34,763 nucleotides of DNA from Candidatus Pseudothioglobus aerophilus (lineage in GTDB: Bacteria; Pseudomonadota; Gammaproteobacteria; PS1; Pseudothioglobaceae): NCBI GenBank assembly GCA_014384565.1, contig JACNFO010000034.1, positions 1-34,763 of the forward strand, read 5' to 3'. Every line of letters starts with the position of its first letter. Position 1 is the first letter of the stretch. The notes beneath the pieces are model-generated. The model did not search any database. It saw nothing but the letters and a program-made list of their open reading frames with translations, and had not been told where the DNA came from. Positions 384-34,046 of this stretch are shown here, one piece after another. A program made the position numbers and the translations under genes.

Positions 384-414
384 ATAAACTTATTAATGTA
401 CTACTTTAGAATCT

Positions 415-3366: not shown

Positions 3367-3468
3367 ATATTTATTAATTTCCTCTAAAAGCTTCGAATTG
3401 TAGCTATATTTGATTAAAAAGATGTTAAAATACTTCTTAGTTACTTACAGTTAAAATCTAGTCTTAAA

Positions 3469-3540
3469 GGCTTATTTATTATATTTTTAAGCCAAAACAT
3501 GAACTTGCAATCATTGCCTGCCTTAATGGCCGCAATGTGA
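3469..3540 (+). promoter_or_regulatory. structured leader upstream of accB, with possible short leader ORF
   Basis: The 229-base spacer before accB has several inverted repeats. GGCTTA (3469-3474) pairs with TAAGCC (3488-3493). CATTGC (3512-3517) pairs with GCAATG (3532-3537), and inside that stem GCC (3520-3522) pairs with GGC (3528-3530), giving a composite hairpin. A further GCAAT at 3507-3511 directly precedes the first arm, so ATTGC has two possible partners. The ATG at 3499 opens a 13-codon frame (MNLQSLPALMAAM, stop 3538-3540) that spans the hairpin, but it lacks an obvious ribosome-binding site. Long accB leaders with autoregulation by BCCP are known in E. coli; a regulatory role here is inferred. 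Confidence 0.4.
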
Positions 3541-3595
3541 ATTTGTATTTAGATTCAAAAAAACTAATTGCAAAGAATAATAAAGGGGAACGTAA

Positions 3596-4039
3596 ATGGA
3601 TATTCGAAAAGTTAAAAAGCTAATGGAGCTTCTAGAGGAATCTGGAATGTCAGAAATTGAAATTAAAGAAGGCGAAGAGTCAGTAAAAATTTCTAGATAT
3701 GGAAATTCGCCTGCACCAAGCCACTCTTTTGTTCAGCAACAAGCACCTACCTCCTTACCTCAAGTGATTGCGGCTCCAGTAATTGCGGATGAACCCTCAA
3801 CTGTTGGTCAGTCTTTAACATCTCCCATGGTAGGAACTTACTATTCAGCCCCGTCTCCAACTGCAAAGCCTTTTATTACAATTGGCCAACACGTAAAACA
3901 GGGCGACACCATTGGCATTGTTGAAGCAATGAAGATAATGAACCAAATTGAAGCTGAACAGTCTGGAACAGTCCTTCAAATTCTTGTTAAAGATGGTGAA
4001 GCTGTAGAATTTGGACAACCGCTAATCATAGTCGAATGA
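3596..4039 (+). CDS. accB: biotin carboxyl carrier protein of acetyl-CoA carboxylase
   Basis: Carries the biotin that AccC carboxylates and AccA/AccD then use to make malonyl-CoA, the first committed step of fatty acid synthesis. The protein has 147 residues. An N-terminal docking segment ([17 protein letters not shown]) is followed by a Pro/Ala-rich linker (about 38-75) and a C-terminal biotinyl domain starting at SPMVGTYY. The biotin-accepting lysine is K113 in [13 protein letters not shown]. The PSPTAKPF segment corresponds to the protruding thumb of bacterial BCCPs. A strong Shine-Dalgarno sequence (AAGGGGAA, about 3582-3589) supports the ATG at 3596. The end overlaps accC by four bases (ATGA), so the two are translationally coupled. 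Confidence 0.97.
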
Positions 4040-16580: not shown

Positions 16581-16628
16581 CTCAGTAGCCAGTTGTGAGA
16601 AAATATTCTCTTTGTTTTTTAAACTGAG
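16581..16628 (+). promoter_or_regulatory. stem-loop region between rpe and metY
   Basis: In the 76-base gap, GAGAA (16597-16601) and TTCTC (16606-16610) form a short hairpin followed by a T-rich stretch (16611-16620), a weak terminator shape for rpe. The hairpin is enclosed by a second pair, CTCAGT (16581-16586) and ACTGAG (16623-16628), ending five bases before the metY ATG. The nested pairing could be a metY attenuator, or simply the rpe terminator. I did not recognise a known SAM riboswitch core. Confidence 0.35.
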
Positions 16629-16633
16629 CATTT

Positions 16634-17935
16634 ATGGGAAAGTCATCCTTTTTTGGTCCTGAAACAATATCTCTGCATTCTGGTTATCAGCCAGAACCGT
16701 CTTTTGGAAGCAGAGCAGTTCCTATATACCAAACCACCTCTTATGTTTTCGAAACAGTTGACGATGCTGCAGCTCTTTTTAATATTGAAAAAGGTGGTCA
16801 TATATATAGCCGCATAACCAATCCAACGGTTGCGGTTTTAGAGCAGAGAATCGCTGCACTAGAAGGTGGTGTTGGAGCTATTTGTACTGCTTCGGGCATG
16901 AGTGCACTTTTTGTTACTTTTATTAGCCTGTGTTCTGCAGGAGATCATATTGTAAGTGCGTCACAAATTTATGGCTCAACAGGAACACTTCTAAAACACA
17001 CTCTTAAAAGGTTTAACATAGAGTGTACCTTTATTTCTATAAATGATGAAAAAGCGCTAAAAGACGCAATACAAGAAAACACTAAGCTTGTGTTTTGTGA
17101 GTCAATAGGAAATCCAGGGCTCGAAGTTTCTGACCTTCCTAAAATTGCTGAAATCGCCCACCAAAATAACTTGCCGCTTGTTGTGGATGCTACTTTTTCT
17201 ACGCCTGTATTATGCAAACCTTTTGAGCATGGCGTTGATGTTGTTGTTCACTCAGTCACAAAATGGATTGGTGGACATGGCGTTGCTGTTGGAGGGGTAA
17301 TTGTTGATGGCGGTTCTTTTGACTGGGGCTCTAGCAACAAACACCCAACCCTAACAACGCCTTATGAGCCATTTCATGGTATAAATTTTTGGGAAGAATT
17401 TGGTCCATCTGCCCTATCAATGAAAATTAGAGCAGAATCAATGCGTGATTTTGGTCCAGCAATGAGCCCTCATAGTGCATTTTTGATTCTTCAAGGAATA
17501 GAAACTCTCACTCTTAGAATGAATCAACATGTAAAAAATGCAATTAAACTTGCAAAGTGGCTCCTAGAACAATCCGCTGTTATGTGGGTTAACCATCCAG
17601 ATTTACCCGAAAACCCAACTTATGAAATTGCTCAAAAGCTATTTCCAAATGGTGCTGGCTCTATGCTTTGCTTTGGAGTCAAAGGGGGCAGAGAAGGTGG
17701 CGCAGCATTTATCAATGCACTAAATTTATCATCTAATTTAGCAAATGTTGGTGATTCAAGGACCTTAGTTCTTCATCCAGCTAGTACAACTCACTCGCGC
17801 CTTGATGAAGAAGCAATGAAAGCAGCTGGAAGTAGTGTTGACTTAATACGTGTATCTGTTGGAATAGAGTCTGTATCAGATATTATTAGTGACTTCAAAT
17901 CCGGGCTTAAAGCAGTAGAAAAGGCAATTTCATAA
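16634..17935 (+). CDS. metY: O-acetylhomoserine sulfhydrylase (MetY type)
   Basis: PLP enzyme of the Cys/Met metabolism family that joins O-acetylhomoserine to sulfide, giving homocysteine, or to methanethiol, giving methionine directly. The pyridoxal lysine is K210 in HSVTKWIGGHGVAVGG. ETISLHSGYQPEPSFGSRAVPIYQTTSY at the N-terminus, GHIYSRITNPTVAVLEQRIAALEGG, and HPASTTHSRL near the C-terminus are typical. At 433 residues it matches MetY (about 430) better than the shorter O-succinylhomoserine enzyme MetZ (about 390-400). There is no clear Shine-Dalgarno site. Its stop overlaps the next start by one base (TAATG), making it the first gene of a tightly coupled run of lipid-type acyl-CoA genes. 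Confidence 0.92.
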   Translation: MGKSSFFGPETISLHSGYQPEPSFGSRAVPIYQTTSYVFETVDDAAALFNIEKGGHIYSRITNPTVAVLEQRIAALEGGVGAICTASGMSALFVTFISLCSAGDHIVSASQIYGSTGTLLKHTLKRFNIECTFISINDEKALKDAIQENTKLVFCESIGNPGLEVSDLPKIAEIAHQNNLPLVVDATFSTPVLCKPFEHGVDVVVHSVTKWIGGHGVAVGGVIVDGGSFDWGSSNKHPTLTTPYEPFHGINFWEEFGPSALSMKIRAESMRDFGPAMSPHSAFLILQGIETLTLRMNQHVKNAIKLAKWLLEQSAVMWVNHPDLPENPTYEIAQKLFPNGAGSMLCFGVKGGREGGAAFINALNLSSNLANVGDSRTLVLHPASTTHSRLDEEAMKAAGSSVDLIRVSVGIESVSDIISDFKSGLKAVEKAIS

Positions 17936-18726
17936 TGAATGTTGTTGTTGATGGAGAAAATATTTTTGTAGCCACTGGTGGCTGTGCATTTGATCCTAAG
18001 AAGCCTACTGTAGTGTTTATTCATGGAAGTGGTCTAGACCATAGGTCTTGGGCCCTTCAGGCTAGATGGTTTGCTTTTCATGGTTTTTCAGTATTCGCAC
18101 CTGACCTACCAGGTCATAGCCTTTCCGAAGGCAAGCCTTTAAAAACAATTGAAGAGATGGGCAAATGGCTTGGGAAAACTCTTAAACTAGCGGGCTGTGA
18201 ATCAATACATCTTGTTGGCCATTCTCAAGGATTTCTTGTTGCTTTAGAGACAGTCAGCTCTTTAGGAGCAAAACTAAAAACACTAACTGCTGTTGCAACA
18301 GCTGCCTCAATACCTGTTAACGAAGCCCTGGTTGACGCAGCCAAAAAGACACCTATTGATGCAGCTGATATGTTGCTCAAGTGGGGGTTTGGCTCTCAAT
18401 CACAATCAGGTAGTAGTGCTGTTCCAGGAATGCAGCCTATTGGAATTGGTCGACAAATAATGGCTAATAATCCGCTAGCAGAAGATCTTACTGCTTGCAC
18501 TGAATATAAAAATGGCATAAATTGTGCTAAAAATATCAACATTCCCTCTAATGTTATTCTCGCAACAGAAGACAAAAATACACCTCTTCGATTCGGCATA
18601 GAATTAGCTGAGCTGCTGAATGCTGAGACTACGACTATTTCTAATGCAGGTCATATGCTTCCAATAGAGTCTCCAAAAGATACTCTTGACGCCATTAAAT
18701 CATTCATCTTAAAAAACTCTTCATGA
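17935..18726 (+). CDS. alpha/beta hydrolase
   Basis: A 263-residue serine hydrolase of the alpha/beta fold. The oxyanion segment is VVFIHGSGLDHRSW (27-39), the nucleophile S97 sits in LVGHSQGF, the acid is probably the Asp in ATEDKNTPLRFG, and the histidine is in SNAGHMLPIESP. There is no signal peptide, so it is cytoplasmic. It is too short and lacks the lid to be homoserine acetyltransferase MetX. It is wedged between metY (one-base overlap) and the hydroxyacyl-CoA dehydrogenase gene (four-base overlap), so an ester, lactone or thioester hydrolysis feeding the acyl-CoA steps is a reasonable guess. The substrate is unknown. Confidence 0.85.
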   Translation: MNVVVDGENIFVATGGCAFDPKKPTVVFIHGSGLDHRSWALQARWFAFHGFSVFAPDLPGHSLSEGKPLKTIEEMGKWLGKTLKLAGCESIHLVGHSQGFLVALETVSSLGAKLKTLTAVATAASIPVNEALVDAAKKTPIDAADMLLKWGFGSQSQSGSSAVPGMQPIGIGRQIMANNPLAEDLTACTEYKNGINCAKNINIPSNVILATEDKNTPLRFGIELAELLNAETTTISNAGHMLPIESPKDTLDAIKSFILKNSS

Positions 18727-21020
18727 AAAATCAAATTAAAAAAGTTGGCGTTATTGGCGCCGGAACAATGGGGGCTGGAATTGCTGGTCAAGTAGCAAAC
18801 GCTGGGGTAGAAGTTTGGCTTCTTGACCTTCCTAGTGAGGGTGAGAACGTAAACAGCTTAGCGGCTAAAGGCCTTGAAAGGCTTAAAGATCCAGATATGC
18901 CTGGCCTTATGAGTAAAGAAGCGGAAAGCCTTATAAGAATTGGAAACACTCGCGATCACTTCCATGAGCTTGCGGATTGCGACTGGATTGCTGAAGCGGT
19001 TGTAGAGAGGCTTGATGTTAAGCAAGCCCTTTATCAAAAATTAAATGAAAGCTGTAAAGAGTCAACCATTATTACCTCTAATACATCAACGATTCCTATT
19101 AGTCTTCTGACAAAAGGAATGCCAAAAAAGTTTTGTGAGCGCTTTGCAATAACTCATTTTTTCAACCCAGTTAGATTCATGAGATTACTTGAATTGGTGC
19201 GTGGTGAATTTACTAGAGATGAAGTAATTGATACTCTTGATTTATTTAGTGAAAAAATACTTGGAAAAGGTGTTGTCTCCTGCCTAGATACGCCTGGCTT
19301 TCTTGCTAATAGAGTTGGTGTTTTTGCTATCCAGTGTGCCCTTCATAAAGCCTTTGAATATAAACTATCGCCAACAGAAGCGGATGCTTTTTTTGGCAGA
19401 CCTCTAGGTCTTCCAAAGACAGGAGTTTTTGGGCTATATGATTTAATAGGCATTGACCTTATGGCTGATGTTGTCAAAAGCCTCGTAAGTATACTGCCAG
19501 AAAATGATGCTTTTCATAATTACTCGTCTCAAATTAAGTTTATGACCAAAATGATTGCAAATGGCCAAACTGGAAATAAAAATGAAAAAGGTTTTTATAA
19601 ACAAATTGGTGATGAAAGACAAGTAATTGATTTGTCGAATGGGAGTTATGGTCCTCATGAGCGCTTAAAAACCCCTCTTCTTGAAGAGGCAGAAAAAATT
19701 GGGATCTCTTTTATTATTAAAAACACAAGCCCGTATGGTCTTTATGTATGGGATGTTATTTCAGAAACGCTCTGCTATGCTGCTTCTCTGGTCCCAGAGG
19801 TCACTGATGATTTAACGCAGATAGATGATGCTATGAAGCTTGGCTATAACTGGGTTCAGGGGCCATTTGAGCTGTTAGATGAAATTGGAATTGAGTACTT
19901 TGTTGACAGACTACAAGCTGATGGTAGAGACGTTCCAGAGTTTCTTCTTAAGGGTATTAACAATAAATTTTATATCAATTCAAAATCTGGATTAAGCTCC
20001 CTTTCGCCTAGTGGCAATCTAAAACCAATTATCAGGCCAGATGGTGTGCTTAGATTTTCTGAAGTACGACAAACCCTCAAAGCAATCAATTCAAATGAGT
20101 CTGCTAGCTGGTTTGAATACGAAGGTGCGGCAATTGTTGAGTTTCACTCAAAAGCTAATGCTCTTGATAGTGGGTCTTTAGATATGATTTCTGATGCAAT
20201 ATCTGAGTCTGAAAAAAAGGGCTTACGAGGCGTGGTAATTCACAATGACTTCCAGCATTTCTCATGTGGGGTTAGTCTTTGGAGTGTTAGAAATTGCTTT
20301 GAAAAAAATGACTTTGATGCTCTTGATGCATTTCTTATTTACTTTCAAAACACAATGCTACAAATGAGAAATTCAAAACTACCTGTAATTGCTGCCCCTG
20401 TTGGCATGTCAATTGGTGGTGGCTTTGAAGTTGTCCTTCATGCTGATCATGTTGTTGGTCATGCTAACTCTGTCATGGGCCTTGTTGAGTCATTTATGGG
20501 GGTTGTTCCAGCTGGTGGTGGATGTAAAGAAACACTATATAGGTGGTCTGAAAGTCTAGGAGACGGTCGGAAAGGTGCCTGGAAATCATTTATGAATATT
20601 GGACTTGGTAGAAAAGCCAACTCTCCACAAGAGGCTGATGCTCTATCAATGAGAAGAGCTAATGATGTCTTTCATATGAATAGAGACCGCATACTGACTG
20701 GTGCGCTTTCATCGATTGAGACAACCTCAAAAGCAAAAACTCGAAATCCCCTCGCACTTTCTGGCGTAGACCACTTTGAAGAAATGCTGGAATGGCTTAC
20801 AAAAAATCATAAAAATGGCATGCTTACGCCACATGATGTGACTGTTGGAACTGAGATTGGAAGAATTATGACTGGTGGAAATTGTGCTTCTGGTACTATT
20901 TTTACTGAACAAGATATTTTAGATGCTGAGCGCTCTTCATTCCTCACTCTTGCTCAAACGCAAGAAACGCAAGCAAGAATTGTATCTATGTTAGATAATG
21001 GAATTACGCTTAGAAATTAA
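18723..21020 (+). CDS. bifunctional 3-hydroxyacyl-CoA dehydrogenase / enoyl-CoA hydratase, FadN-type order
   Basis: Catalyses the middle two steps of beta-oxidation. The 765-residue protein has the NAD-dependent dehydrogenase first: GxGxxG at 11-16 (GAGTMGAG), catalytic H145 and E157 in THFFNPVRFMRLLELVRG, and DTPGFLANRVG. The crotonase domain follows (about 460-660). Its catalytic glutamates are E569 in IGGGFEVVLHAD and E589 in GLVESFMGVVPAGGG, 20 residues apart as in rat crotonase. This order is the reverse of E. coli FadB and matches Bacillus FadN (about 790 residues). No thiolase partner lies nearby. It overlaps the hydrolase by four bases (ATGA). Confidence 0.93.
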   Translation: MKNQIKKVGVIGAGTMGAGIAGQVANAGVEVWLLDLPSEGENVNSLAAKGLERLKDPDMPGLMSKEAESLIRIGNTRDHFHELADCDWIAEAVVERLDVKQALYQKLNESCKESTIITSNTSTIPISLLTKGMPKKFCERFAITHFFNPVRFMRLLELVRGEFTRDEVIDTLDLFSEKILGKGVVSCLDTPGFLANRVGVFAIQCALHKAFEYKLSPTEADAFFGRPLGLPKTGVFGLYDLIGIDLMADVVKSLVSILPENDAFHNYSSQIKFMTKMIANGQTGNKNEKGFYKQIGDERQVIDLSNGSYGPHERLKTPLLEEAEKIGISFIIKNTSPYGLYVWDVISETLCYAASLVPEVTDDLTQIDDAMKLGYNWVQGPFELLDEIGIEYFVDRLQADGRDVPEFLLKGINNKFYINSKSGLSSLSPSGNLKPIIRPDGVLRFSEVRQTLKAINSNESASWFEYEGAAIVEFHSKANALDSGSLDMISDAISESEKKGLRGVVIHNDFQHFSCGVSLWSVRNCFEKNDFDALDAFLIYFQNTMLQMRNSKLPVIAAPVGMSIGGGFEVVLHADHVVGHANSVMGLVESFMGVVPAGGGCKETLYRWSESLGDGRKGAWKSFMNIGLGRKANSPQEADALSMRRANDVFHMNRDRILTGALSSIETTSKAKTRNPLALSGVDHFEEMLEWLTKNHKNGMLTPHDVTVGTEIGRIMTGGNCASGTIFTEQDILDAERSSFLTLAQTQETQARIVSMLDNGITLRN

Positions 21021-21031
21021 CCGTTAATGCT

Positions 21032-22645
21032 ATGAAAAAAAATCCTGCAAATTTTATACCTCTTTCACCGCTTTCGTTCTTACATAGAACAGCGGATGTT
21101 TATGGTCAGCATACTTCTGTAATTTATGAAAATAGAACTTACACTTGGAGTGAGTCAAGAGAAAGATGCGTTCGAATTGCCTCAAGTCTAAAAAGTTATG
21201 GCATAAAGCCAGGTGATACTGTCTCAGTATTGGCATTTAACACCCCAGAAATGTTTGAATCACATTTTTCAATTCCAATGGCTGGCGCAGTCCTAAACAC
21301 TATAAATATTAGACTTGATGCCGCAACAATTGCATACATTTTTGACGACAGTAATGCAAAGATGCTCTTTGTTGACAGAGAGCTTTTTGCAGTTGCATCT
21401 GAGGCCCTCTCTATGACTTCAGTTAGTCCAAAAATAGTAGTAATAAACGATTCTTTTGCTGAATCACAGCCTGATATTTCTTCAGATATAACTGATTATG
21501 AATCTCTAGTTGTAAATGGAGATCCTCTATATAACTGGCAAATGCCTGATGATGAGTGGAGCCCACTTTCACTCAGCTACACCTCTGGAACAACTGGAAA
21601 ACCTAAAGGCGTCGTCTATCATCATCGTGGCTCTTATTTAATGAGTATGGGTACTGTAATTGGCTGGAGCCTTCCCAACCACCCGGTTTATCTGTACTCA
21701 GTTCCATTATTTCACTGCAATGGCTGGGGCCATGCTTGGACAATGGCTGCGATCGCTGGAACTATAGTTTGCCTTAGGGCTTTTGCCCCTGAAAAAGTAT
21801 TTAACCTCCTTGAACAGCATAATGTAACTCACTTTGGTGGAGCTCCTATAATGCTCAATATGCTTGCCAACGCGCCTAAAGAAACGCAAAAATATTTTGA
21901 GAGAGAAATTAAAGTAATGACTGCTGGCGCACCTCCTCCTGCAAAGGTTTTAGAGAGCATGATGAAACTAGGATTTAATGTTATGCATGTATATGGATTG
22001 ACTGAAACGTATGGACATATCCTTCAAGCCGCACCTCAAGCATCTTGGCTTAATGAGAGTCCAGCCGAGCTTGCTAAATTAAGCTCAAGGCAGGGAGTAA
22101 GATTCCCAATGACCGAGGATGTTAGTGTCATTGATCAAGAGACTGGGCAGCGAGTTCCGCATGACGGAGAGGCGATTGGTGAAATTGTAATTCGCTGTAA
22201 CACTTGTATGATGGGCTATTGGAACAGCCCCAAGGCAACAGAAGAGGCATTTGCAGGTGGCTGGTTTCATAGTGGCGACCTAGCAGTAATTCATAGTGAT
22301 GGCTATATTCAAATTAAAGACAGATCAAAAGACATCATCATATCGGGTGGTGAGAATATTTCTTCCGTGGAGGTTGAAAATGTACTTTATCAACATCCTG
22401 CAGTCGGAGAAGCAGCAGTTGTAGCAATGCCAAATGAGACTTGGGGAGAAGTGCCGTGTGCATTTGTAGAACTCAAGTCTAACCAAGAGGCTTCTGAAGA
22501 TGAGCTTATAGCCTTTTGCAAAAACAATATGGCTAAATTTAAAAGGCCAAAAAAAGTTGTCTTTGGGCCGCTGCCAAAAACCGCAACTGGGAAAATACAA
22601 AAACACGAGCTTAGAGCGTCAGTTAAAAACCTAGGAGAAGAATAA
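21032..22645 (+). CDS. AMP-forming acyl-CoA ligase
   Basis: Activates a carboxylic acid to its CoA thioester with ATP. The 537-residue ANL-superfamily enzyme has the P-loop SYTSGTTGKPKGVVYHH (about 183-199), the VYGLTETYG motif, HSGDLAVIHSDGYIQIKDRSKD, the hinge region GGENISSVEVE, and the catalytic lysine in PKTATGKIQKHELR near the C-terminus. The opening PANFIPLSPLSFLHRTADVYG is typical of the short/medium-chain (butyrate-CoA ligase-like) group that includes plant AAE proteins. DmdB, the methylmercaptopropionate-CoA ligase, is a related family, and the acid used here cannot be assigned by eye. It starts 11 bases after the FadN-type gene, and its stop overlaps the dehydrogenase start by one base. 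Confidence 0.93.
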   Translation: MKKNPANFIPLSPLSFLHRTADVYGQHTSVIYENRTYTWSESRERCVRIASSLKSYGIKPGDTVSVLAFNTPEMFESHFSIPMAGAVLNTINIRLDAATIAYIFDDSNAKMLFVDRELFAVASEALSMTSVSPKIVVINDSFAESQPDISSDITDYESLVVNGDPLYNWQMPDDEWSPLSLSYTSGTTGKPKGVVYHHRGSYLMSMGTVIGWSLPNHPVYLYSVPLFHCNGWGHAWTMAAIAGTIVCLRAFAPEKVFNLLEQHNVTHFGGAPIMLNMLANAPKETQKYFEREIKVMTAGAPPPAKVLESMMKLGFNVMHVYGLTETYGHILQAAPQASWLNESPAELAKLSSRQGVRFPMTEDVSVIDQETGQRVPHDGEAIGEIVIRCNTCMMGYWNSPKATEEAFAGGWFHSGDLAVIHSDGYIQIKDRSKDIIISGGENISSVEVENVLYQHPAVGEAAVVAMPNETWGEVPCAFVELKSNQEASEDELIAFCKNNMAKFKRPKKVVFGPLPKTATGKIQKHELRASVKNLGEE

Positions 22646-24399
22646 TGTCATACTATACTGCGCCTGTAGAAGATATGAGTTTTGTATTAAAAGAAGTTGT
22701 TGAAATTGAAAAACTTTGTAATGAGATAGGCCTTGATGCTTCAACAGTTGACATAATTGATACGGTTTTAGATGCTGCAGGAAAGCTTGCAAAAGAAGAG
22801 ATAGAACCAATTAACAAAACTGGTGACTCAGAGGGTTTAAAAATTGACAGCTCTGGCAAAATCACTACTGCAACTGGTTTTAAAGAGGCGTACCAGCACT
22901 TTGTTGAAGGAGGATGGGGCTCGTTACAATTCTCACCTAATTATGGAGGACAAGGCGTCCCTTTTGTCGTTGCTGCAAGCGTTCAAGAAATGTGGCATTC
23001 GGCAAACATGTCATGGGGTCTGTGCCCTCTCCTTACCCAGGGAGCAGTGGAAGCAATAACTCTAAATGCAAATGAGGAACTCAAACAGCGCTACCTTCCA
23101 AAGCTTATATCTGGTGAGTGGAGCGGCACGATGAATCTTACTGAAGGTGATGCAGGTACAGATGTTGGTTCGCTTAAAACGCGAGCAACTCCAAACGGTG
23201 ATCATTATTTAATCTGTGGTCAAAAAATTTATATCACTTGGGGCGAGCACGATATGTCTGAGAATATCATTCATTTAGTGTTGGCCCGACTGCCAAACTC
23301 TCCTCAGGGTGTTAAAGGCATATCTTTGTTTTTAGTGCCAAAGATTCTTGTCAATGATGATGGCTCCCTTGGAGATTCTAACGACTTAAAAGCATTATCA
23401 ATTGAGCACAAAATTGGAATTCATGCTTGCCCGACGTGCGTCATGAGCTATGGGGAAGAAGATGGGGCAATTGGCTACTTAGTTGGCGAGGAAAATAGAG
23501 GTATTCAATGTATGTTCACAATGATGAATAATGCAAGACTCACAGTTGGACTCCAGGGAGTATCAGTTTCAGAACGTGCGTACCAACAAGCACTTAGTTT
23601 TTGTAATGAACGTGTTCAAGGAATTGCTCCAGGATTTCAAGAGCCTGGTCCAATCGCTAGGCATCCTGATGTGCAAAGAATGTTAGCAAACATGAAATCT
23701 ATTACCGAAGCAGCGAGAGCTTTAGCCTATTCCGCTTGTGCAGAAGTTGACTATTCTGGAAGCGACTTGCCAGCAGAATTATTAGAAAAACATAAAAGGA
23801 AACTTGGAGTCTTAACGCCGGTTGTAAAGGGCTGGTGCACTGAAACCGCACAAGAAGTTGCCTCTGTAAGCCTTCAGTGTCACGGAGGAATGGGCTATGT
23901 TGAAGAGACTGGAATTGCTCAGATTTTAAGGGATGCACGCATACTTCCAATCTATGAAGGGACCAATGGAATTCAAGCAATGGACCTCATTGGTAGAAAA
24001 ATCATTAGCGATGATGGGCTTGGAGTTAGGGAGCTTATTTTAGAAATGCAAGAATGTGTCGAAGCCCCATCATTATCAAAGCTGATTTCCATGTCGCAGA
24101 TTGATCGGTTTAAAAAGTCTCTTGATGATCTTGAAGAAACTGTTTCGATTATTACTAAAAACTCTGATGACAAAGAATTTACTGGAAAAATTGCCTTTGA
24201 TACACTCATGATGATTGGAACTATTTCAGCAGCTTGGCAAATGCTTTTAAGCGTTGAAAGGGCATCATCTGCTTTTAAAAACAACACATCATCTTCTGAA
24301 TTTTTAAAAGAAAAAACTGAAACTGCAAAACACTATCTAGACTTTATAATGCCAAGATATCTATCAAATTTTTCAACAATATCTGCGTGTACGAATTAA
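22645..24399 (+). CDS. acyl-CoA dehydrogenase, large DmdC-like type
   Basis: FAD enzyme that introduces the alpha-beta double bond into an acyl-CoA. At 584 residues it is much longer than classic acyl-CoA dehydrogenases (about 380-400). It has an N-terminal extension with LKEVVEIEKLCNEIG and a C-terminal domain after residue 450, the layout of the DmdC and related long-chain families. The FAD and substrate motifs are MNLTEGDAGTDVGSLKT (163-179) and CHGGMGYVEETGIAQILRDARI (412-433). The probable catalytic base is E438 in IYEGTNGIQ, near the position reported for DmdC (E435). Annotation pipelines often call this group methylthiopropionyl-CoA dehydrogenase without proof. It ends the metY operon; no strong terminator follows. 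Confidence 0.92.
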   Translation: MSYYTAPVEDMSFVLKEVVEIEKLCNEIGLDASTVDIIDTVLDAAGKLAKEEIEPINKTGDSEGLKIDSSGKITTATGFKEAYQHFVEGGWGSLQFSPNYGGQGVPFVVAASVQEMWHSANMSWGLCPLLTQGAVEAITLNANEELKQRYLPKLISGEWSGTMNLTEGDAGTDVGSLKTRATPNGDHYLICGQKIYITWGEHDMSENIIHLVLARLPNSPQGVKGISLFLVPKILVNDDGSLGDSNDLKALSIEHKIGIHACPTCVMSYGEEDGAIGYLVGEENRGIQCMFTMMNNARLTVGLQGVSVSERAYQQALSFCNERVQGIAPGFQEPGPIARHPDVQRMLANMKSITEAARALAYSACAEVDYSGSDLPAELLEKHKRKLGVLTPVVKGWCTETAQEVASVSLQCHGGMGYVEETGIAQILRDARILPIYEGTNGIQAMDLIGRKIISDDGLGVRELILEMQECVEAPSLSKLISMSQIDRFKKSLDDLEETVSIITKNSDDKEFTGKIAFDTLMMIGTISAAWQMLLSVERASSAFKNNTSSSEFLKEKTETAKHYLDFIMPRYLSNFSTISACTN

Positions 24400-24471: not shown

Positions 24472-25032
24472 ATGTTAAAACTTAGCTTTCTTTCGTTGCT
24501 ATTAATTTCTTCTTTTGCAAGCGCAGAGGAAGAAAGGCGTGCAGATGCACATGCCCACGGACTAAACAATTTTTCAATGGTAATCAGTCAAAATCAAGTT
24601 GCTATTACTTATGAAATGCCAATAGTTCAACTACTTAATGAACATGATGAACATGACGAGCATGACGAGCATGACGAGCATGACGAGCATGAGGAGCATG
24701 AGGAGCATGACGAGCATGATAAGTTAAGCGTATCAGGTGAATCATTAGCTGAATTTCAAAATTATTCACAATTATTTTCATTTCCTAAAGGTGCTAATTG
24801 TGACTTAGTTTCATTTAAATCTGAACTTCACAGTGTCTCAACAGAAGGAGATCACAAAGATGTCGAATTATCATATGAGTTTTCTTGCAATGAGCCAAGC
24901 CAATTAAAGAGCATTACCATTAATGCATTCAATCGCTTCAGCGAACTAGAAAATTTATACTTCGAGGCAGTAATAAACAATAAAGCGCTAACAAAAAGCC
25001 TAAAATCTGACGTCGATAAAGTAATATTTTAA
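24472..25032 (+). CDS. DUF2796 (ZrgA-like) His-rich periplasmic zinc-binding protein
   Basis: A 186-residue secreted protein. Residues 1-18 are a Sec signal peptide ending SFASA. The mature start RADAHAHGLNNFSMVI matches the HxHG opening of the DUF2796 family. Residues 57-83 form a His/Asp/Glu run in which nine histidines (58, 61, 64 ... 82) fall every third residue, a likely zinc-collecting loop. A Cys pair (C110, C139) may form a disulfide. DUF2796 proteins head zinc-regulated ABC operons such as ZrgABCDE of Vibrio cholerae. The role proposed is periplasmic zinc capture for the ABC transporter encoded next. Confidence 0.88.
   Translation: MLKLSFLSLLLISSFASAEEERRADAHAHGLNNFSMVISQNQVAITYEMPIVQLLNEHDEHDEHDEHDEHDEHEEHEEHDEHDKLSVSGESLAEFQNYSQLFSFPKGANCDLVSFKSELHSVSTEGDHKDVELSYEFSCNEPSQLKSITINAFNRFSELENLYFEAVINNKALTKSLKSDVDKVIF
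24640..24720 (+). repeat. nine tandem 9-bp units encoding the His-rich loop
   Basis: Nine consecutive 9-base units of the form GAGCATGAC run in frame, with single-base variation (GAACATGAT, GAGCATGAG). Each unit encodes Glu-His-Asp or Glu-His-Glu. Such short in-frame arrays change copy number readily, so the length of the metal-binding loop probably varies among strains. Confidence 0.9.
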
Positions 25033-27924: not shown

Positions 27925-28446
27925 TTAACTGCTTATTCTCACCATAAGTTCATTTTTACGAAACATTGGCAGCGTCCATGGTGAATTAAATTGAGCAACC
28001 ATAAAGCCTCCTTTTATTTCAATCTTGTTTTTTAAAAGCAACTCTGAAAGTTTTTTTTGATAGTTTATGCTTCTAGATTCAGTAGCCCAGCCCCCAAAAG
28101 ATAGAACAGCGACCTTACCAAGACTCTCTTTCTGAATTGAAACTTCACTTATGTTGGCTTTGGGGAGGTCGCTCATAGAGTGTTCTTTGGGCATTATAAA
28201 AGAAATGTTATAAGACTTAAGCCCCTCAGAAGGGCAATCAGCAATAACAGGTGCAGTCATGGCAATTTTCATTTCTTTATCGTTGCCACCAAAAATATAA
28301 CTTGCAATTCTTCTGAATCCAGAAGATGTTGAGGCTTTGTAGTCGGCCTGAACTTTTGTTGTAGCAATAACCATGTCACTATAACGACGAACTTCAAAGC
28401 CTTCACACTTGGATATTATTTTATATTCAGGGGTTTCAATTGCCAT
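27925..28446 (-). CDS. SOUL/heme-binding-like protein
   Basis: A 173-residue protein of the SOUL family. The opening IETPEYKIISKCEGFEVRRYSDMVIATT and the segment GFRRIASYIFGGNDKEMKIAMTAPVI are the family signatures. No signal peptide is apparent. Animal members bind heme or porphyrins; bacterial roles are poorly known. It is the last gene of the minus-strand lipid operon, 15 bases after the DUF1295 gene, and converges with the Fur-family gene. No strong Shine-Dalgarno is visible. Confidence 0.88.
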   Translation of the reverse strand: MAIETPEYKIISKCEGFEVRRYSDMVIATTKVQADYKASTSSGFRRIASYIFGGNDKEMKIAMTAPVIADCPSEGLKSYNISFIMPKEHSMSDLPKANISEVSIQKESLGKVAVLSFGGWATESRSINYQKKLSELLLKNKIEIKGGFMVAQFNSPWTLPMFRKNELMVRISS

Positions 28447-28461
28447 TTTTTTTAGTTTGAG

Positions 28462-29343
28462 TTATTTTTTTCCAAAATAAGGAATCAATATGGGTGTGTT
28501 GCTCTTGTATTCAAGATACTCCTTGTCATTGCCCCATTTTTTTTCAGCTTTTTCTTCTAAAAAAGGCAGTCCACTTATTTTAGTTAAGAGAAGATAGACA
28601 AAAACTGGCGACACAAGGGTTAAAAACTGCCAGCCTGAGAGAAGTGGGAGCGATATAATTGCAATGCCCGTCCAAAGAATAATCTCCCCAAAATAGTTTG
28701 GGTGGCGTGATATAGACCATAATCCAAGTGTTATAAATTTATCCTTATTTTCAGGGATTTCACTAAAGCTCTTTTTTTGTTTATCTGCGACAGCCTCGAA
28801 AGCAAACCCTAAAACCCAGAGGGAAAATCCTGCTATAAAAAATAAGTCAAGAGCTGCATGCTGGTTTAAAACAATAATGGTAACAGCATTTGCTGTCGTT
28901 AGGAAAACCCATAGGGCTGAAAGAGTCCATGTCATTAAAAATTTTGGCAACGATTTTTTGATCTCCCTAAACCTTTTGTCTTCTCCACTTTTAACAATTC
29001 TTATATAGAGAAATGTCCCAAGTCTTAGCGTCCAAATAGATACAAAAATAGCCACAGTAGTTGAGCGGATAGAAACTTGCATTCCTTGGCCTAAAAGTGC
29101 AAATATAGAAGTAGCAACTAGAAGTAGAGTTGCGATCATTCCTGTAAAGTCAAAATATTTTTCTGAGCTTGTTACAAGCGAAGGGATTGCAACAATCCAG
29201 TGCACAATAAAGCTAACAGCGGCACATAAAAGTATGGCTGGCACGCCGTAAAGTACAGCGCCCTCAACTGTTGCAGCATTTGCAACAAAATAGGCTGTCA
29301 AAATACATAAAATAATAGCAACAAGGTCCTTGATATTATCCAT
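28462..29343 (-). CDS. DUF1295 membrane protein (steroid 5-alpha-reductase-like)
   Basis: A 293-residue integral membrane protein with about seven to eight helices. The C-terminal half carries LWSISRHPNYFGEIILWTG, the NADPH-associated signature of DUF1295 and related 5-alpha-reductase/isoprenylcysteine methyltransferase folds, then LPFLEEKAEKKWGNDKEYLEY. Members are thought to reduce double bonds in lipids. It shares one base with the stop of the preceding methyltransferase gene (TAATG), so the two products are probably made together. Reduction of a methylated or unsaturated fatty acyl intermediate is a reasonable inference. Confidence 0.88.
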   Translation of the reverse strand: MDNIKDLVAIILCILTAYFVANAATVEGAVLYGVPAILLCAAVSFIVHWIVAIPSLVTSSEKYFDFTGMIATLLLVATSIFALLGQGMQVSIRSTTVAIFVSIWTLRLGTFLYIRIVKSGEDKRFREIKKSLPKFLMTWTLSALWVFLTTANAVTIIVLNQHAALDLFFIAGFSLWVLGFAFEAVADKQKKSFSEIPENKDKFITLGLWSISRHPNYFGEIILWTGIAIISLPLLSGWQFLTLVSPVFVYLLLTKISGLPFLEEKAEKKWGNDKEYLEYKSNTPILIPYFGKK

Positions 29344-30377
29344 TATGGCCTCTCAAAAAGATAGTGGGAAACGCCCCATTCAGAGCCGTTTTTAAAACCA
29401 AAAAGAACCTCGCATGACATGAAAAAAATGCGCCACCTTTGAAACCAAATGCCTGCTTCATCTTTGCCATAAGTTTTTTCGAATAATTTAAGCACTTCAG
29501 CCTTATTTTTATCCATCTTGTTAAGCCATGCGAGTGAGGTTTTTTCATAGTGAGTTCCATCTACCCTCCAATCTTTCTCAATTTTCATCCGACTTGGAAA
29601 ACAGGTTAGGAGCCTATGAGAAGGCATCTGACCGCCACTAAAAAACTCTCTAGCCATCCAGTCTCCCTCATCTTGGTCTTCAAAGGGATAGGCAATTTCT
29701 TTATGAGAAAAAATATGAACAAAAAGTTTTCCATCTTTTTTTAACCAGCCACTTACTCTTTTTAGAAGCTCACCATAGTTGCGCATATGTTCAAACATTT
29801 CGATTGAAACAACACGATCAAAGCTTTTATCAATTGAAAAGTCGTTCATGTCTGCTGTTATAACCTTGATATTTTCTATCTTTAATTTCTTACATTTGTT
29901 CTCAATAAACTGCCTCTGGTCCTTTGAATTACTAACAGCAGTAATTTTGCTATTAGGGAAATTTTGTGCCATATAAAGAGTCAAGGAGCCCCAACCACAT
30001 CCTAATTCTAAAACCTCTTGGCCATCTGAAAGGGATGCCCTTTCACAAGAAAGCTTTAACATCTCCAGCTCTGATTCGTCTAGTGACGAAGCACCCTTTG
30101 GCCAATAACCAGAACTGTATTTTAAGTTCGAGCCCAGGACCAATTCAAAAAGCCTTGGTGGAACCTCATAGTGCTGTTCATTTGCTTTTTCTGGAACCAG
30201 AGCAATTGGGCTTTCATTTAAAAAGTCAATCCAAGATGAGTGTCTTTTTTCCATTTCAAGCTTGCCAATGCTCGTTGCCTCTAAAAGCCTTTGAGCACAT
30301 AAACGCCTTATTCCAAGCCTAATAAGCATATCTGGTAATAAACCATTTTCTGCAAGTTTTATTAATAATTTAATCAT
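29343..30377 (-). CDS. SAM-dependent methyltransferase, cyclopropane-synthase / coclaurine N-methyltransferase-like
   Basis: A 344-residue methyltransferase. SAM motif I is VLELGCGWGSL (122-132). Other conserved blocks are RVVSIEMFEHMRNYGELL and LFVHIFSHKEIAYPFED followed by DWMAREFFSGGQMPSH, closest in appearance to the coclaurine N-methyltransferase-like branch of the cyclopropane synthase superfamily. The E. coli active-site cysteine (C139, in YSCAYW) is serine here (S89 in KYSSGYW), while the EH pair (E196, H197) and the H in VHIF are kept. The frame is open to 30443, but that would overlap the previous gene by 62 bases; the ATG at 30377 lies four bases after that gene's stop and gives the normal start MIKLLIKLAENGLLPD. 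Confidence 0.88.
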   Translation of the reverse strand: MIKLLIKLAENGLLPDMLIRLGIRRLCAQRLLEATSIGKLEMEKRHSSWIDFLNESPIALVPEKANEQHYEVPPRLFELVLGSNLKYSSGYWPKGASSLDESELEMLKLSCERASLSDGQEVLELGCGWGSLTLYMAQNFPNSKITAVSNSKDQRQFIENKCKKLKIENIKVITADMNDFSIDKSFDRVVSIEMFEHMRNYGELLKRVSGWLKKDGKLFVHIFSHKEIAYPFEDQDEGDWMAREFFSGGQMPSHRLLTCFPSRMKIEKDWRVDGTHYEKTSLAWLNKMDKNKAEVLKLFEKTYGKDEAGIWFQRWRIFFMSCEVLFGFKNGSEWGVSHYLFERP

Positions 30378-30381
30378 TTTT

Positions 30382-31671
30382 TTAGTGTGTAATTTTAATG
30401 TTTTTGGAGTCAGGTTTAGCAAATATAAACTGAAAATCACCAATTAGGTTTTCAAGAAATCCCGCTTCACAGTAGACTAGGTAAAAAACCCAAATCCTTA
30501 TAAAAGGGTCAGAAAAACCAAGCTCTCTCACTTGCGGCAATACATTTTCAAAGTCTTTACGCCATATCTCGAGTGTCCTTGCATAGTGAAGAGTTATATC
30601 TTCAGAGTCAACCATAATTAAATCCGTTTTATCTTTGATGGCTTTCTCAACTTGTGACAATGAGATAAGACATGAGCCAGGAAAAATATATTTTCTGATA
30701 AAATCTACCGAACTTTTATAGGCATTAAAGTCTGGGTCGTTATATGTTATTCCTTGAAGAGCCATTAAACCATTTTTCTTCAGCAATGAAGAGGCCTTTT
30801 CAAAGAAGCCAGGCACAAAGTCAGACCCAACAGCCTCTATCATTTCAATTGAAACAATCTTATCAAAAACACCCTCAAGCTCTCTATAATCTTTGTTTAG
30901 TAAAGTTATTTTATTATCTAAATTCTCCTTACTAATCAGCTCAGCAACATAATTAAACTGATTGTCTGATATAGTCGTAGTGGTAACTTTACAGCCATAA
31001 TTTTTGGCTGCATGTGTTGCAAAGCTTCCCCATCCCGTTCCTATTTCAAGAACATGGTCACTACTATTAAGGTTTAGTTTTCGACATAGCCTATCCAGCT
31101 TTTCTACCGAGGCATCAAGCATACTTGACTTCTTGTTTAGAAAAATGCCGCTTGAGTAAGTCATGGTTGAGTCGAGCCATAGCTTATAAAAATCATTACT
31201 CAAATCGTAGTGTGCCAAGATATTACTCTTGCTTCCTTTTAAGGTGTTTTGTCTAAGCCTATGGATTATTTTAGTGATTGGATTTGTTAATCTTGCAAGT
31301 CCAGATTCAAGCCCCTCCATGGTTTTTTTATTTCTAATAATGATCTGAATTAATTCAACCAAATTATCTGCAGACCAATAACCAGCAGTGAAGGCCTCTG
31401 CTGCGCCATTGGTGCCACCACTCCCTAAAAAAACATAAAACTCTTGAGATGAAACAGTTAAGGTTGCCTTAAACTCTGATTTTAGAATGCCAAATACGTG
31501 AATTTCAGAACCATCAATTATTGTCAGCTCACCAGTTTTTAAGCCTTTCAGTTTTTTAAATAAAATCCTTTTAAAGAAAGAAGTCATTCTGGTGCTTCTT
31601 TGTATTTCTTGAATATTATTTGCTAAGCCATCAACTGAAAGTCTATCTTTAGTTTGAATTTCTCGAGTCAT
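30382..31671 (-). CDS. cyclopropane-fatty-acid-synthase-like methyltransferase with altered active site
   Basis: A 429-residue SAM-dependent methyltransferase of the CFA synthase family, with a full N-terminal lipid-binding part (about 30-150) and a catalytic part beginning ILAHYDLSNDFYKLWLDSTMTYSSG. SAM motif I is VLEIGTGWGSF (207-217). Compared with E. coli CfaS, the bicarbonate-site cysteine C139 is S174 and H266 is Q306, while E239 is kept as E279 in MIEAVG. The YIFPGSCL block is intact. Such changes are shared by the DUF1365-linked branch and argue against simple cyclopropanation. It overlaps the DUF1365 gene by four bases, forming the usual FAD protein-DUF1365-CFA trio. Confidence 0.92.
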   Translation of the reverse strand: MTREIQTKDRLSVDGLANNIQEIQRSTRMTSFFKRILFKKLKGLKTGELTIIDGSEIHVFGILKSEFKATLTVSSQEFYVFLGSGGTNGAAEAFTAGYWSADNLVELIQIIIRNKKTMEGLESGLARLTNPITKIIHRLRQNTLKGSKSNILAHYDLSNDFYKLWLDSTMTYSSGIFLNKKSSMLDASVEKLDRLCRKLNLNSSDHVLEIGTGWGSFATHAAKNYGCKVTTTTISDNQFNYVAELISKENLDNKITLLNKDYRELEGVFDKIVSIEMIEAVGSDFVPGFFEKASSLLKKNGLMALQGITYNDPDFNAYKSSVDFIRKYIFPGSCLISLSQVEKAIKDKTDLIMVDSEDITLHYARTLEIWRKDFENVLPQVRELGFSDPFIRIWVFYLVYCEAGFLENLIGDFQFIFAKPDSKNIKITH

Positions 31672-32432
31672 AGTTTGTCAGGATGTGTAAAAAATGGAGC
31701 TCTTTTTATATAGAGCATAAATGCTTGCCAATGGATTCTATATACAACCATCAGGGTGATAAATGGAAACCTGGAAATTGCTTTAACAAGACCTGCGTTT
31801 GAAAATGCACGCCTCTTTAAGTCAAGAGAAACATTAAAAACCTTTTCACCATCTTTAAAGTTTTTCATTTTTACATTTAGAGAGTCTTCAGGTTGTGAGA
31901 AAAACCACTCATAATCATGGTCCATCCCCCAAAAAGGACTTACATGTAGTTGTTTTTTTGGAGAGGCGATAAACCCCGTCCTAGTATTATTTTCTGTTTG
32001 CTCTTCAATAATGTAGGCATGCCTTTCTTTCCATGGTGTGTTTGTTACTTCAGCCATTATGGCCTCAACCTTTTGGTCTAAATCATCAAAACAGTAATAA
32101 AAACTTACTGGATTAAAACAATGCCCAAAGTACCTCAAGTGCGTCAGGAGTCTAATTGGCCCATTAAAAACTTTACCAGTTTTTTCATGAAGTGTTTTTC
32201 GAACCGCGCTATCTAATTCTAAGCCTGGGTCTCCATGGTAGTCCTTCCTTTTAAATGAAACAAGCGCAGGCTTATTAATGTTCCAAAGAAGTGATGGCTT
32301 CATCGTGGATGCTAAAGACGAGATATCAATATAGGCCATAAAAATTGGGTATGAAAAAAACCGCTTAAACGGGGTGTTTCGCTGATGACTAATGGTACCC
32401 CAATATAGTTGGTGATTTTTAGAGAGCATCAT
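31668..32432 (-). CDS. DUF1365 protein
   Basis: A 254-residue protein of the DUF1365 family. The diagnostic parts are YWGTISHQRNTPFKRFFSYPIFMAYIDI at the N-terminus and RLLTHLRYFGHCFNPVSFYYCF (about 94-115), with conserved H and C residues, then AEVTNTPWKERHAY and HVSPFWGMDHDYEW. No signal peptide; a C-terminal hydrophobic stretch may touch the membrane. The function is unknown, but the family almost always lies between an FAD amine oxidase-like gene and a CFA-like methyltransferase, exactly as here, with four-base overlaps on both sides. Confidence 0.92.
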   Translation of the reverse strand: MMLSKNHQLYWGTISHQRNTPFKRFFSYPIFMAYIDISSLASTMKPSLLWNINKPALVSFKRKDYHGDPGLELDSAVRKTLHEKTGKVFNGPIRLLTHLRYFGHCFNPVSFYYCFDDLDQKVEAIMAEVTNTPWKERHAYIIEEQTENNTRTGFIASPKKQLHVSPFWGMDHDYEWFFSQPEDSLNVKMKNFKDGEKVFNVSLDLKRRAFSNAGLVKAISRFPFITLMVVYRIHWQAFMLYIKRAPFFTHPDKL

Positions 32433-33676
32433 AAGGCCTTATCAAAAAAACTATAAACATCAAGGGCGCTGTTAACGCCATCCTCATGAAAACCATTACC
32501 CCAATATGCTCCACAATAAAAAGTGTTATTTACACCACTTATTTTATTCTTTTCTTTTTGTGCTTTAACGCCCTTGACCGTGAAAAGAGGATGATGGTAG
32601 ACTAAAGTCTTAATTATTTTGCTTTTATCAACATCCCCATTACTATTTAGGGTTACTAAAAAATTAGTCTTCGACTTTAATGATTGCAAAATATTCATGT
32701 TATAGGTTAGCGTCACCGGCTTACTTTGATCACCGCTCAAAAGGTAGTTCCAACTAGACCATGTTATTTTCTTTTTAGGCAATATAGAAGAGTCTGTGTG
32801 CAGCAATGCCACATTTTTTTGATAAGGCAGGGAGCCTAAAATTTCAACCTCTTCTTCACTAGGATCCTCTAATAATGCCAATGCTTGATCACTGTGTGTT
32901 GCAAATATAACCTTATCAAACTGATGAGAGGCCTCATCCTTTCCATAAAAAACTTCAACACTATTTTTGCCCCTTATTACCTTGGAAACTGGGGTTGAAA
33001 GCAAAATTTTATTTTTAAATCCTGCAATTATTTTTGGTATGTATGCTTTTGAGCCGCCCTTAATTACGAACCATTGGGGACGATTAAATATTTGAAGTAG
33101 TCCATGGTTTTTGAAAAATCTAATATAAAAAACTGCTGGCATTTCTGTTGTTTTTTTCGCAGCTGTTGACCATATGGCAGCACCCATTGGAATTATATAG
33201 TTCTCAATAAAATTCTTATTAAATTTATGGTTAATCAAAAATTCATAGATTGTTGTTGACTCGTTTAAATTACTTAGTTTTGCCACTGAGATTCGATTAA
33301 ATCTTAAAATGTCTTTGAGCATCATCAAGAAAGAAGGTCGAAATAGGTTGAGGCGTTGAGCAAATAAAGAATTTAGAGAGCCTCCAGAGTACTCTAGTTT
33401 TTGTCCTGGTGCCTTAACACTAAAACCCATAGAAGTTTTTTGCGTGTCAACTTTAAGTTTTTGAAGAAGCTTTATAAAGTTTGGATATGTGTTTTCATTG
33501 TAAACAATAAAGCCAGAATCAATCAGCCACTTCTTTTTATCTACCTCGATTTGATGGGTGTGGGTATGGCCGCCTATATAGTCATTAGCTTCCAAAATGG
33601 TAATATCGTGTTGTTTGTGAAGAAGATGAGCAGCTGTTAAGCCAGATATTCCGCTTCCAATAATAGCAATTTTCAT
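32429..33676 (-). CDS. FAD-dependent amine oxidase-like oxidoreductase
   Basis: A 415-residue flavoprotein. The N-terminal Rossmann motif is IAIIGSGISGLTAAHLL (3-19) with E29 for ribose binding, followed by IGGHTHTHQIE. The GFIVYNENTYPNFIKLL segment and the C-terminal YCGAYWGNGFHEDGVNSAL close the FAD site, as in amine oxidase/phytoene desaturase-like proteins linked to DUF1365 and CFA-like genes. In Rhodobacter sphaeroides, genes of this kind are implicated in making methylated furan fatty acids. A role in desaturating or oxidising a methylated acyl chain is inferred. It is the first gene of the minus-strand operon; the stop codon four codons upstream in frame confirms the ATG at 33676. Confidence 0.9.
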   Translation of the reverse strand: MKIAIIGSGISGLTAAHLLHKQHDITILEANDYIGGHTHTHQIEVDKKKWLIDSGFIVYNENTYPNFIKLLQKLKVDTQKTSMGFSVKAPGQKLEYSGGSLNSLFAQRLNLFRPSFLMMLKDILRFNRISVAKLSNLNESTTIYEFLINHKFNKNFIENYIIPMGAAIWSTAAKKTTEMPAVFYIRFFKNHGLLQIFNRPQWFVIKGGSKAYIPKIIAGFKNKILLSTPVSKVIRGKNSVEVFYGKDEASHQFDKVIFATHSDQALALLEDPSEEEVEILGSLPYQKNVALLHTDSSILPKKKITWSSWNYLLSGDQSKPVTLTYNMNILQSLKSKTNFLVTLNSNGDVDKSKIIKTLVYHHPLFTVKGVKAQKEKNKISGVNNTFYCGAYWGNGFHEDGVNSALDVYSFFDKAL

Positions 33677-33894: not shown

Positions 33895-34046
33895 CTTTCA
33901 GCCAACATGAGCTGTAAGAAGGGCTAACTAAATCTTTATAAAGTTAGTATTTTAATGTATCACACAGAGCCCCAATATTAACCAGGGTGCCTTTTTAATA
34001 AGGTTGGTTAATAGGCAATGTGGAAGTCTTAACCCAGGAGAAAAAT
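33895..34046 (+). promoter_or_regulatory. structured rpsB leader, probable S2 autoregulatory element
   Basis: The leader holds CTAACT (33924-33929) paired with AGTTAG (33942-33947), and a perfect 8-bp long-range pair, TATTAACC (33976-33983) with GGTTAATA (34006-34013). An alternative TGCC (33988-33991) to GGCA (34014-34017) pairing competes with the latter. The Shine-Dalgarno CAGGAG (34035-34040) follows. In E. coli the rpsB-tsf leader is folded and S2 represses through it; the same is inferred here. Confidence 0.6.

Follow-up and report, generated by a model that had tools for sequence, protein, structure and literature searches.

A run of five genes at positions 16,634 to 24,399 of a contig of Candidatus Pseudothioglobus aerophilus (the whole 34,763-nucleotide stretch is hereafter called the window) probably constitutes a dimethylsulfoniopropionate (DMSP)-demethylation module, that is, one degrading methylmercaptopropionate (MMPA), coupled to methionine synthesis. 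On the sequence evidence described below we put the probability of this reading at about 75%. The window is contig C20 of a 1.47 Mb genome (G000 in our set) in 62 contigs, 91% complete. The host belongs to the SUP05/Thioglobus cluster, the heterotrophic branch of which is now named Pseudothioglobus, a genus listed in the NCBI taxonomy. Analysis of the open reading frames (ORFs) places the five genes head to tail on the + strand, all with ATG starts and separated in order by an overlap of 1 base, an overlap of 4, a gap of 11 and an overlap of 1, so that the layout given in the preliminary description of this stretch holds to the base.

16634..17935, + strand: metY, O-acetylhomoserine sulfhydrylase family (pyridoxal phosphate enzyme), TIGR01326 over cut-off
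17935..18726, + strand: alpha/beta hydrolase, 263 aa, Abhydrolase_6/_1 domains
18723..21020, + strand: FadN-type 3-hydroxyacyl-CoA dehydrogenase / enoyl-CoA hydratase, 765 aa, 3HCDH_N + 3HCDH + ECH_1 domains
21032..22645, + strand: AMP-forming acyl-CoA ligase, DmdB-like, PRK08162 subfamily
22645..24399, + strand: acyl-CoA dehydrogenase, DmdC/PF12806 family, PF12806 (Acyl-CoA_dh_C)

In the proposed pathway, DmdA, encoded on another contig (C33), would convert DMSP, a sulfur compound of algal origin, to MMPA, the ligase would activate MMPA to MMPA-CoA and the DmdC-family dehydrogenase would oxidise MMPA-CoA to methylthioacryloyl-CoA. Next, the FadN-type protein would add water through its hydratase domain, with elimination of methanethiol, leaving malonate semialdehyde-CoA, which may be handled by the dehydrogenase domain of the same protein or by the hydrolase. 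Because hydration would eliminate methanethiol and leave malonate semialdehyde-CoA, no thiolase would be needed. MetY, presumably translated from the same mRNA, would capture the methanethiol with O-acetylhomoserine to give methionine. A self-contained route from a methylthio-acid to methionine had been suggested earlier for these genes. The route is now the best-supported explanation, given the linkage of dmdA to metY and an AcuR-type regulator in relatives, the clade of the ligase and the single PF12806 protein of the genome. However, it is not self-contained here, because dmdA is located on another contig and no source of O-acetylhomoserine is evident.

Gene order and linkage to dmdA

When GTDB genomes were searched for the FadN-type protein, 13 related loci were obtained (FadN identity 80-98%), from the SUP05 cluster, Candidatus Thioglobus, uncultured gammaproteobacteria and, in one case, the PS1 clade. 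The order rpe-metY-hydrolase-FadN-ligase-dehydrogenase is kept in all 13, rpe being partial in one locus (L042) and the dehydrogenase cut by the locus end in another (L049).

Three GcvT-family proteins of about 380 aa are present in the genome, on contigs C25, C33 and C9. The C25 protein is GcvT; the ORFs next to it resemble gcvH and gcvP, as judged by eye. The presence of dmdA, left to a genome check in the preliminary description, is borne out by the C33 protein, which passes the NCBI DMSP-demethylase cut-off (418.8 against 410); the DmdA-like protein on C9 falls below it (364.5). For both of these the best solved match is 3tfh, a GcvT-like protein that we take to be the DmdA of Pelagibacter. 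The genome as a whole contains 12 GCV_T_C matches in 1.47 Mb, which may reflect extensive use of methylated compounds.

Both metY and a C33-type DmdA are found in 24 family genomes, including our own and one (G032) of another genus. In four of these (G001, G019, G026 and G032) the C33-type dmdA is divergent from metY at a distance of about 150 bp. The metY-neighbouring DmdA proteins are 69-74% identical to the C33 protein, and the three that were tested all pass the demethylase cut-off (422, 425 and 417). The full operon follows dmdA in G001 and G019; the contig of G026 ends within FadN, and in G032 the ligase and dehydrogenase are on a different contig from dmdA-metY. A comparable arrangement is present in another class, in genome G259 (locus L237), where dmdA (477 against 410) is divergent from metY-hydrolase-FadN-ligase. 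The four genes there are joined by overlaps of 4 and 4 and by a gap of 11 as in the window, and their proteins are 36-58% identical to those of the window; no dehydrogenase of the PF12806-type family was found in the 19.5-kb stretch of G259. The ligases of G032, G001 and G019 are separated in the tree from those of the window and G017, and the ligase of G259 is placed outside both groups, so that the adjacency of dmdA and metY is most simply read as the older state, lost in the branch of the window; horizontal transfer is a possible alternative.

A TetR protein encoded after the dehydrogenase in G001 scores over the AcuR cut-off (264.5 against 247) and its counterpart in G019 is 77% identical; among the window and the fetched loci, these two are the only ones in which an AcuR-type gene was found.

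Ligase, dehydrogenase and FadN-type protein

The ligase is a member of the broad PRK08162 subfamily (818 bits against a cut-off of 677). In a tree of 27 ligases, the nine that come from metY operons or stand beside dmdA are split from the 18 others with support 100/99, and none of 500 label shuffles was as clustered; this tree is unrooted, without an outgroup, its rows were chosen by hand and five of the nine come from one family. When three outgroup rows are included, the opposite 14-row set has support 90/98. Eight positions separate the nine-row and 18-row sets almost fully. At positions 233-234, just after an HxxxW motif, the nine have G (8/9) and H (9/9) whereas the others have C (18/18) and F (17/18); the histidine at 234 is thus common to all nine, while the other 18 carry F or Y. 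At position 329 the nine have H and the 18 have P. The signature FHCNGWGH is present in the ligase of the window. HxxxW presumably lines the acyl pocket of DmdB, and the alignment indicates that the window ligase shares these predicted pocket-side residues with the ligases beside dmdA in roseobacter plasmids.

The dehydrogenase matches PF12806 with 46.7 bits (cut-off 30.3) and keeps the glutamate of the YEGTNGIQ motif, which aligns to that of 6ijc and which we take to be the catalytic base. It is the sole PF12806 match in each of G000, G001, G005, G028 and G032. Two PF00441 matches are present in the genome of the window, the other one being in an 818-aa ORF on C10. That ORF is FadE-like and forms, together with a FadB-like ORF, a thiolase and a FadD-like ligase, a cluster separate from the operon. 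The window dehydrogenase belongs to a clade (100/100) whose sister is a Stutzerimonas enzyme (99/98). The solved DmdC 6ijc groups with 8png, 8pns and FadN-linked enzymes, with weak deep branches, and the tree does not show 6ijc and two roseobacter dmd-cluster dehydrogenases as one clade either.

The FadN-type protein scores 478.6 bits with its best NCBIfam model, below the cut-off of 999, and its NAD motif, HFFNP motif and both crotonase glutamates are intact. In the FadN tree the proteins of the window, of G259 and of four family rows form a clade (100/99) apart from eight thiolase-linked FadN-/FadB-type rows. The residue before the first crotonase glutamate is F or Y in this clade and C in the eight other rows, and the clade has GGG where seven of the other rows have WGG and one has GCG. 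Out of 635 plasmid records matched, seven FadN-type loci were read; in six of them a thiolase is located directly upstream of the FadN-type gene, and the seventh has one elsewhere in the cluster. In the window operon this position is taken by metY and the hydrolase. No 3-ketoacyl-CoA thiolase is present among the five genes, and the two strong thiolase matches of the genome are on C10 and C44. The occupation of the thiolase position by metY and the hydrolase would fit a substrate from which the final product is released by elimination rather than by thiolysis. Our analysis presents the FadN-type protein, which is not a stand-alone DmdD, as a candidate methylthioacryloyl-CoA hydratase replacing DmdD. 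It is a better candidate than the crotonase encoded on C9, because the latter lacks both catalytic glutamates in a six-row alignment.

The C9 cluster as a whole (M24 peptidase, DmdA-like protein, OsmC, crotonase and PRK08162 ligase) was considered as the real dmd cluster and set aside as serving a different function, on the grounds of the low score of its DmdA-like protein, the missing glutamates of its crotonase and the position of its ligase outside the dmdA-linked clade. This is not proof, since the DmdA-like protein that stands beside an annotated dmdD in Marivivens is also below the demethylase cut-off (360.5 against 410); the other two of three roseobacter DmdA neighbours pass it (600 and 681). 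C9-type clusters (L054, positions 40-5001; L134, L135 and L137) are kept in G000, G001, G005, G028 and Phaeobacter inhibens P88, and the M24 peptidase precedes the cluster in G000, G005 and G028.

Methionine synthesis, upstream region and neighbouring genes

The metY product passes the MetY family model TIGR01326 (588 bits against 495) and is just below the cut-off of the narrower NF006004 (PRK08134; 624.7 against 636), which the MetY of G259 passes with 663. Its three best solved chains are O-acetylhomoserine sulfhydrylases, and we propose from this family assignment that it joins methanethiol and O-acetylhomoserine to give methionine.

For the hydrolase the nearest solved chain is the carboxylesterase Est-2 (5frd, 61.5 bits), and a Ser-Asp-His triad can be read by eye in the sequence; we propose that it acts as a thioesterase or esterase. 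A role as MetX was rejected, the best models being PRK14875 and PcaD-type hydrolases, all below cut-off. Searched against plasmids, the hydrolase matched 13 records weakly. In two further loci (L139 of G053 and L140 of G050) a hydrolase of about 54% and 38% identity, respectively, comes after metY, with neither FadN nor ligase present. Because the pair occurs there on its own, it may predate the operon.

The preliminary description had supposed the route to be valuable to cells that cannot reduce sulfate. Strong matches (>90 bits) to PF01507, the phosphoadenosine/adenosine phosphosulfate (PAPS/APS) reductase type, are present in five of 29 genus genomes (G001, G016, G017, G019 and G026). No strong PF01507 match was found in G000, G005 or G028 (sub-cut-off in G000 and G028, a partial 24-bit match in G005); Sat-type sulfurylase and Apr were not searched. 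The lack of PAPS reductase suits the lineage of the window and this part of the supposition, but relatives having PAPS reductase also carry metY and the operon. Proteins of the sulfite/nitrite reductase type (PF01077) are present in 22 of the 29 genomes; the 99% complete G028 has none. G000 does have one, but it could be either a nitrite or a sulfite reductase, every model being below cut-off. Proteins of the homocysteine S-methyltransferase type (PF02574) are found in 26 of the 29 genomes and MetH-sized ORFs (1227-1229 aa) in three.

Alignment of the upstream regions reveals one invariant element:

16596..16604, + strand: TGAGAAAAT, nine-base invariant element between rpe and metY

The element lies 29 bases before the metY start and is identical in all 15 rpe-metY gaps of the genus that were aligned. 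These comprise the window, 11 of the 13 loci and three additional regions, and some are near-copies of one another. The element is possibly an extended -10 promoter element; a sigma-70 consensus scan of the window DNA did not list it. A palindromic operator before metY was considered and rejected, since no palindrome is common to the aligned regions.

Elsewhere in the window, a t44 RNA scores over the Rfam gathering score at 33941-34033 (+ strand), and in G001 and G019 rpsB- and tsf-like ORFs (named by eye) lie close to the operon. A ZrgA-type zinc protein containing a repeat rich in histidine and acidic residues is encoded at 24472-25032, before an ABC ATPase gene. The - strand at 27925-33676 encodes in a row a SOUL heme protein, a DUF1295 protein, two CMAS-type methyltransferases, a DUF1365 protein and an FAD amine oxidoreductase, a row that resembles clusters for furan or cyclopropane fatty acid synthesis.

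Counter-evidence, alternatives and related systems

A number of observations weigh against an MMPA module coupled to methionine synthesis. The window itself contains no dmdA, its own copy being that of contig C33, and dmdA is away from metY in 20 of the 24 family genomes having both genes, our own included. A draw of 398 genomes across the phylum contained 26 with a DmdA-like match, our own included, and of the 20 DmdA-like regions read in 18 genomes outside the family (17 of the 25 other matching genomes, and G053), only that of G259 has the metY set beside the DmdA-like gene. The ligase misses the NCBIfam model for 3-(methylthio)propionyl-CoA ligase (NF005426; 314 bits against 822), is only 33% identical to the solved DmdB 6ihk, which stands outside the PRK08162 group in the tree, and scores no better with 6ihk than it does with an acyl-acyl carrier protein synthetase (257 and 259 bits). 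The dehydrogenase joins neither 6ijc nor the two roseobacter dmd-cluster dehydrogenases. PRK08162 ligases also occur beside PF12806 dehydrogenases and electron transfer flavoprotein genes in Caballeronia, Thioclava and Azospirillum plasmids, where the stretch read is free of dmdA. In the genome of the window a second PRK08162 ligase is present in the C9 cluster and the FadB-like protein of C10 also retains both glutamates, so that other enzymes could perform the same steps. No genuine MetX was found, its model being over cut-off in none of the 29 genus genomes; as the 14 controls also score none, this is weak evidence. A 340-aa MetX-like protein was rejected as MetX, since it is below cut-off and assigned to PRK07581. 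A S-adenosylmethionine (SAM) riboswitch before metY was rejected too, there being no Rfam match at that place and none for such a riboswitch in the whole window. Finally, expression of metY in Ruegeria fell on DMSP, although MetY is described there as a direct methanethiol route (PMC9769926).

The miss of NF005426 is not discriminating, because ligases of three roseobacter dmd clusters and of G259 miss the model too (Phaeobacter 314, Marivivens 311, Marinovum 299 and G259 309). As for the earlier comparison of the two enzymes with DmdB and DmdC, the grouping of the ligase with dmdA-linked ligases and the PF12806 domain of the dehydrogenase support it, while the 33% identity to 6ihk and the position of the dehydrogenase outside the solved DmdC lineage do not; with the dehydrogenase sister to the Stutzerimonas enzyme, its membership in a DmdC clade does not follow from our tree. 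The location of dmdA outside the window, the DmdC tree, the distance from solved DmdB and the NF005426 score therefore lower the claims of family membership, and not the proposed working of the module.

Three other explanations deserve consideration. The ligase, dehydrogenase and FadN-type protein might oxidise short- to medium-chain acids in general, with metY and the hydrolase as an unrelated methionine pair heading the operon. Enzymes of the DmdB and DmdC types have a broad substrate range, with butyrate-like substrates preferred by some of them (PMC5395565), and the lineage of the dehydrogenase, the dmdA-free ligase-dehydrogenase sets and the metY-hydrolase pairs of G053 and G050, which lack the other three genes, are all in agreement with this. 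We nevertheless consider general acid oxidation improbable, as the operon is without the thiolase found in the FadN-type plasmid loci, a separate beta-oxidation-like cluster is present on C10, and the dmdA linkage in two classes and the ligase clade speak against it. Still less credible, in our judgement, is oxidation of acrylate or propionate, in which acryloyl-CoA, formed by the ligase or by the dehydrogenase from propionyl-CoA, would pass through the FadN-type protein to malonate semialdehyde-CoA, MetY being independent. The regulator that follows the operon in G001 and G019 is of the AcuR type, named for acrylate use, and a hydratase with a 3-hydroxyacyl-CoA dehydrogenase and no thiolase would suit 3-hydroxypropionyl-CoA. 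However, no AcuR gene was found in the window, dmdA as the linked gene produces MMPA and not acrylate, the ligase and the dehydrogenase would not both be required, and metY is left unexplained.

The third explanation accepts the MMPA module but lets MetY use sulfide to form homocysteine, methanethiol being oxidised or lost. Its odds overlap with those of the preferred reading, because the first steps are common to both. MetY-family enzymes accept sulfide, as is established for the family; the PF01077 proteins of the genus are compatible with this use, the PF02574 proteins could complete methionine synthesis, and the fall of metY expression in Ruegeria points in the same direction. Against these stand the position of metY at the head of putative methanethiol-releasing genes, conserved in two classes, and the published model of MetY acting on methanethiol in SAR11 (PMC5069961) and Ruegeria (PMC9769926). 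We thus regard sulfide use as unlikely, although less so than the two preceding explanations.

An MMPA module coupled to methionine synthesis has a close parallel in SAR11 (Candidatus Pelagibacter ubique), where conversion of DMSP to methanethiol and on to methionine by MetY has already been described (PMC5069961). SAR11 likewise has the DmdA, DmdB and DmdC steps, no DmdD orthologue, a MetY using methanethiol and O-acetylhomoserine, and no sulfate reduction; its metY is under a SAM-V riboswitch, and the enzyme releasing methanethiol is left unnamed in that account and only hypothesised (PMC5069961). In the window, unlike SAR11, metY heads an acid-activating operon with a FadN-type candidate hydratase and no riboswitch was found. 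Plasmid dmd clusters of Phaeobacter inhibens DSM 17395 (acyl-CoA dehydrogenase, dmdD, AMP-binding protein, dmdA) and Marivivens sp. LCG002 (DmdA-like protein, AMP-binding protein, acyl-CoA dehydrogenase, dmdD) also combine a PRK08162 ligase with a PF12806 dehydrogenase, and their ligases are of the clade of the window. In contrast, they have a stand-alone DmdD instead of a FadN-type protein and dehydrogenases on another branch, and their annotated stretch includes neither metY nor a hydrolase. The SAR92 cluster dmdA-acuH-dmdB-dmdC is also gammaproteobacterial and its carriers grew on DMSP as sole sulfur source, but it contains AcuH rather than a FadN-type protein and metY is unmentioned in the main text of that study (PMC10746254). 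Thiolase-fadN-dehydrogenase cassettes on Methylocella, Martelella, Alloyangia and Roseomonas plasmids share the direct succession of a FadN-type protein and a long-type acyl-CoA dehydrogenase; they differ in the thiolase directly upstream and in a FadN of the other clade, with other residues near the catalytic glutamates. On Marinovum plasmid pMaD9 (L248) the order is ligase-dmdA-alcohol dehydrogenase-SBP56, with a MetE-like gene nearby. SBP56 is a methanethiol oxidase family (PMC5739008), and this set represents oxidative disposal of methanethiol, in contrast to the metY of the window.

In favour of the module, work at a coastal station predicts Pseudothioglobus to be a DMSP degrader (PMC13310141). 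The DMSP transporter DmpX has been reported in Candidatus Thioglobus (PMC10030565); DMSP did not support growth of a cultured SUP05 relative that is chemosynthetic (PMC6509183). Our literature search named no paper on a dmd operon containing metY; the supplement of PMC6383258 lay outside that search. MMPA genes beside dmdA in Antarctic gammaproteobacterial genomes are drawn in a supplementary figure of that work, and a metY-linked dmd cluster may already be pictured there, since its one mention of O-acetylhomoserine is not in the main text (PMC6383258). This version of the dmd cluster, with metY and a FadN-type candidate hydratase, looks new, while its chemistry is largely known from other marine bacteria.

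A wider scenario, about which we are slightly more doubtful than confident, is that an offshoot of the FadN cassettes which had no thiolase became a machine for the sulfur of DMSP. The FadN-type protein, aided by the hydrolase, would then be the missing hydratase of oligotrophs without DmdD, a co-translated MetY would turn toxic, volatile methanethiol directly into methionine, and the module would have moved between classes as dmdA facing metY-hydrolase-fadN-ligase. The signature FHCNGWGH together with H329 may separate MMPA-type from general PRK08162 ligases in metagenomes, where the NCBI model misses them. If the FadN-type protein performs the methanethiol-releasing step, the question of the missing DmdD becomes testable with one purified enzyme. 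The physical coupling of this step to metY would mean that sulfur is kept in the cell and not lost as methanethiol.

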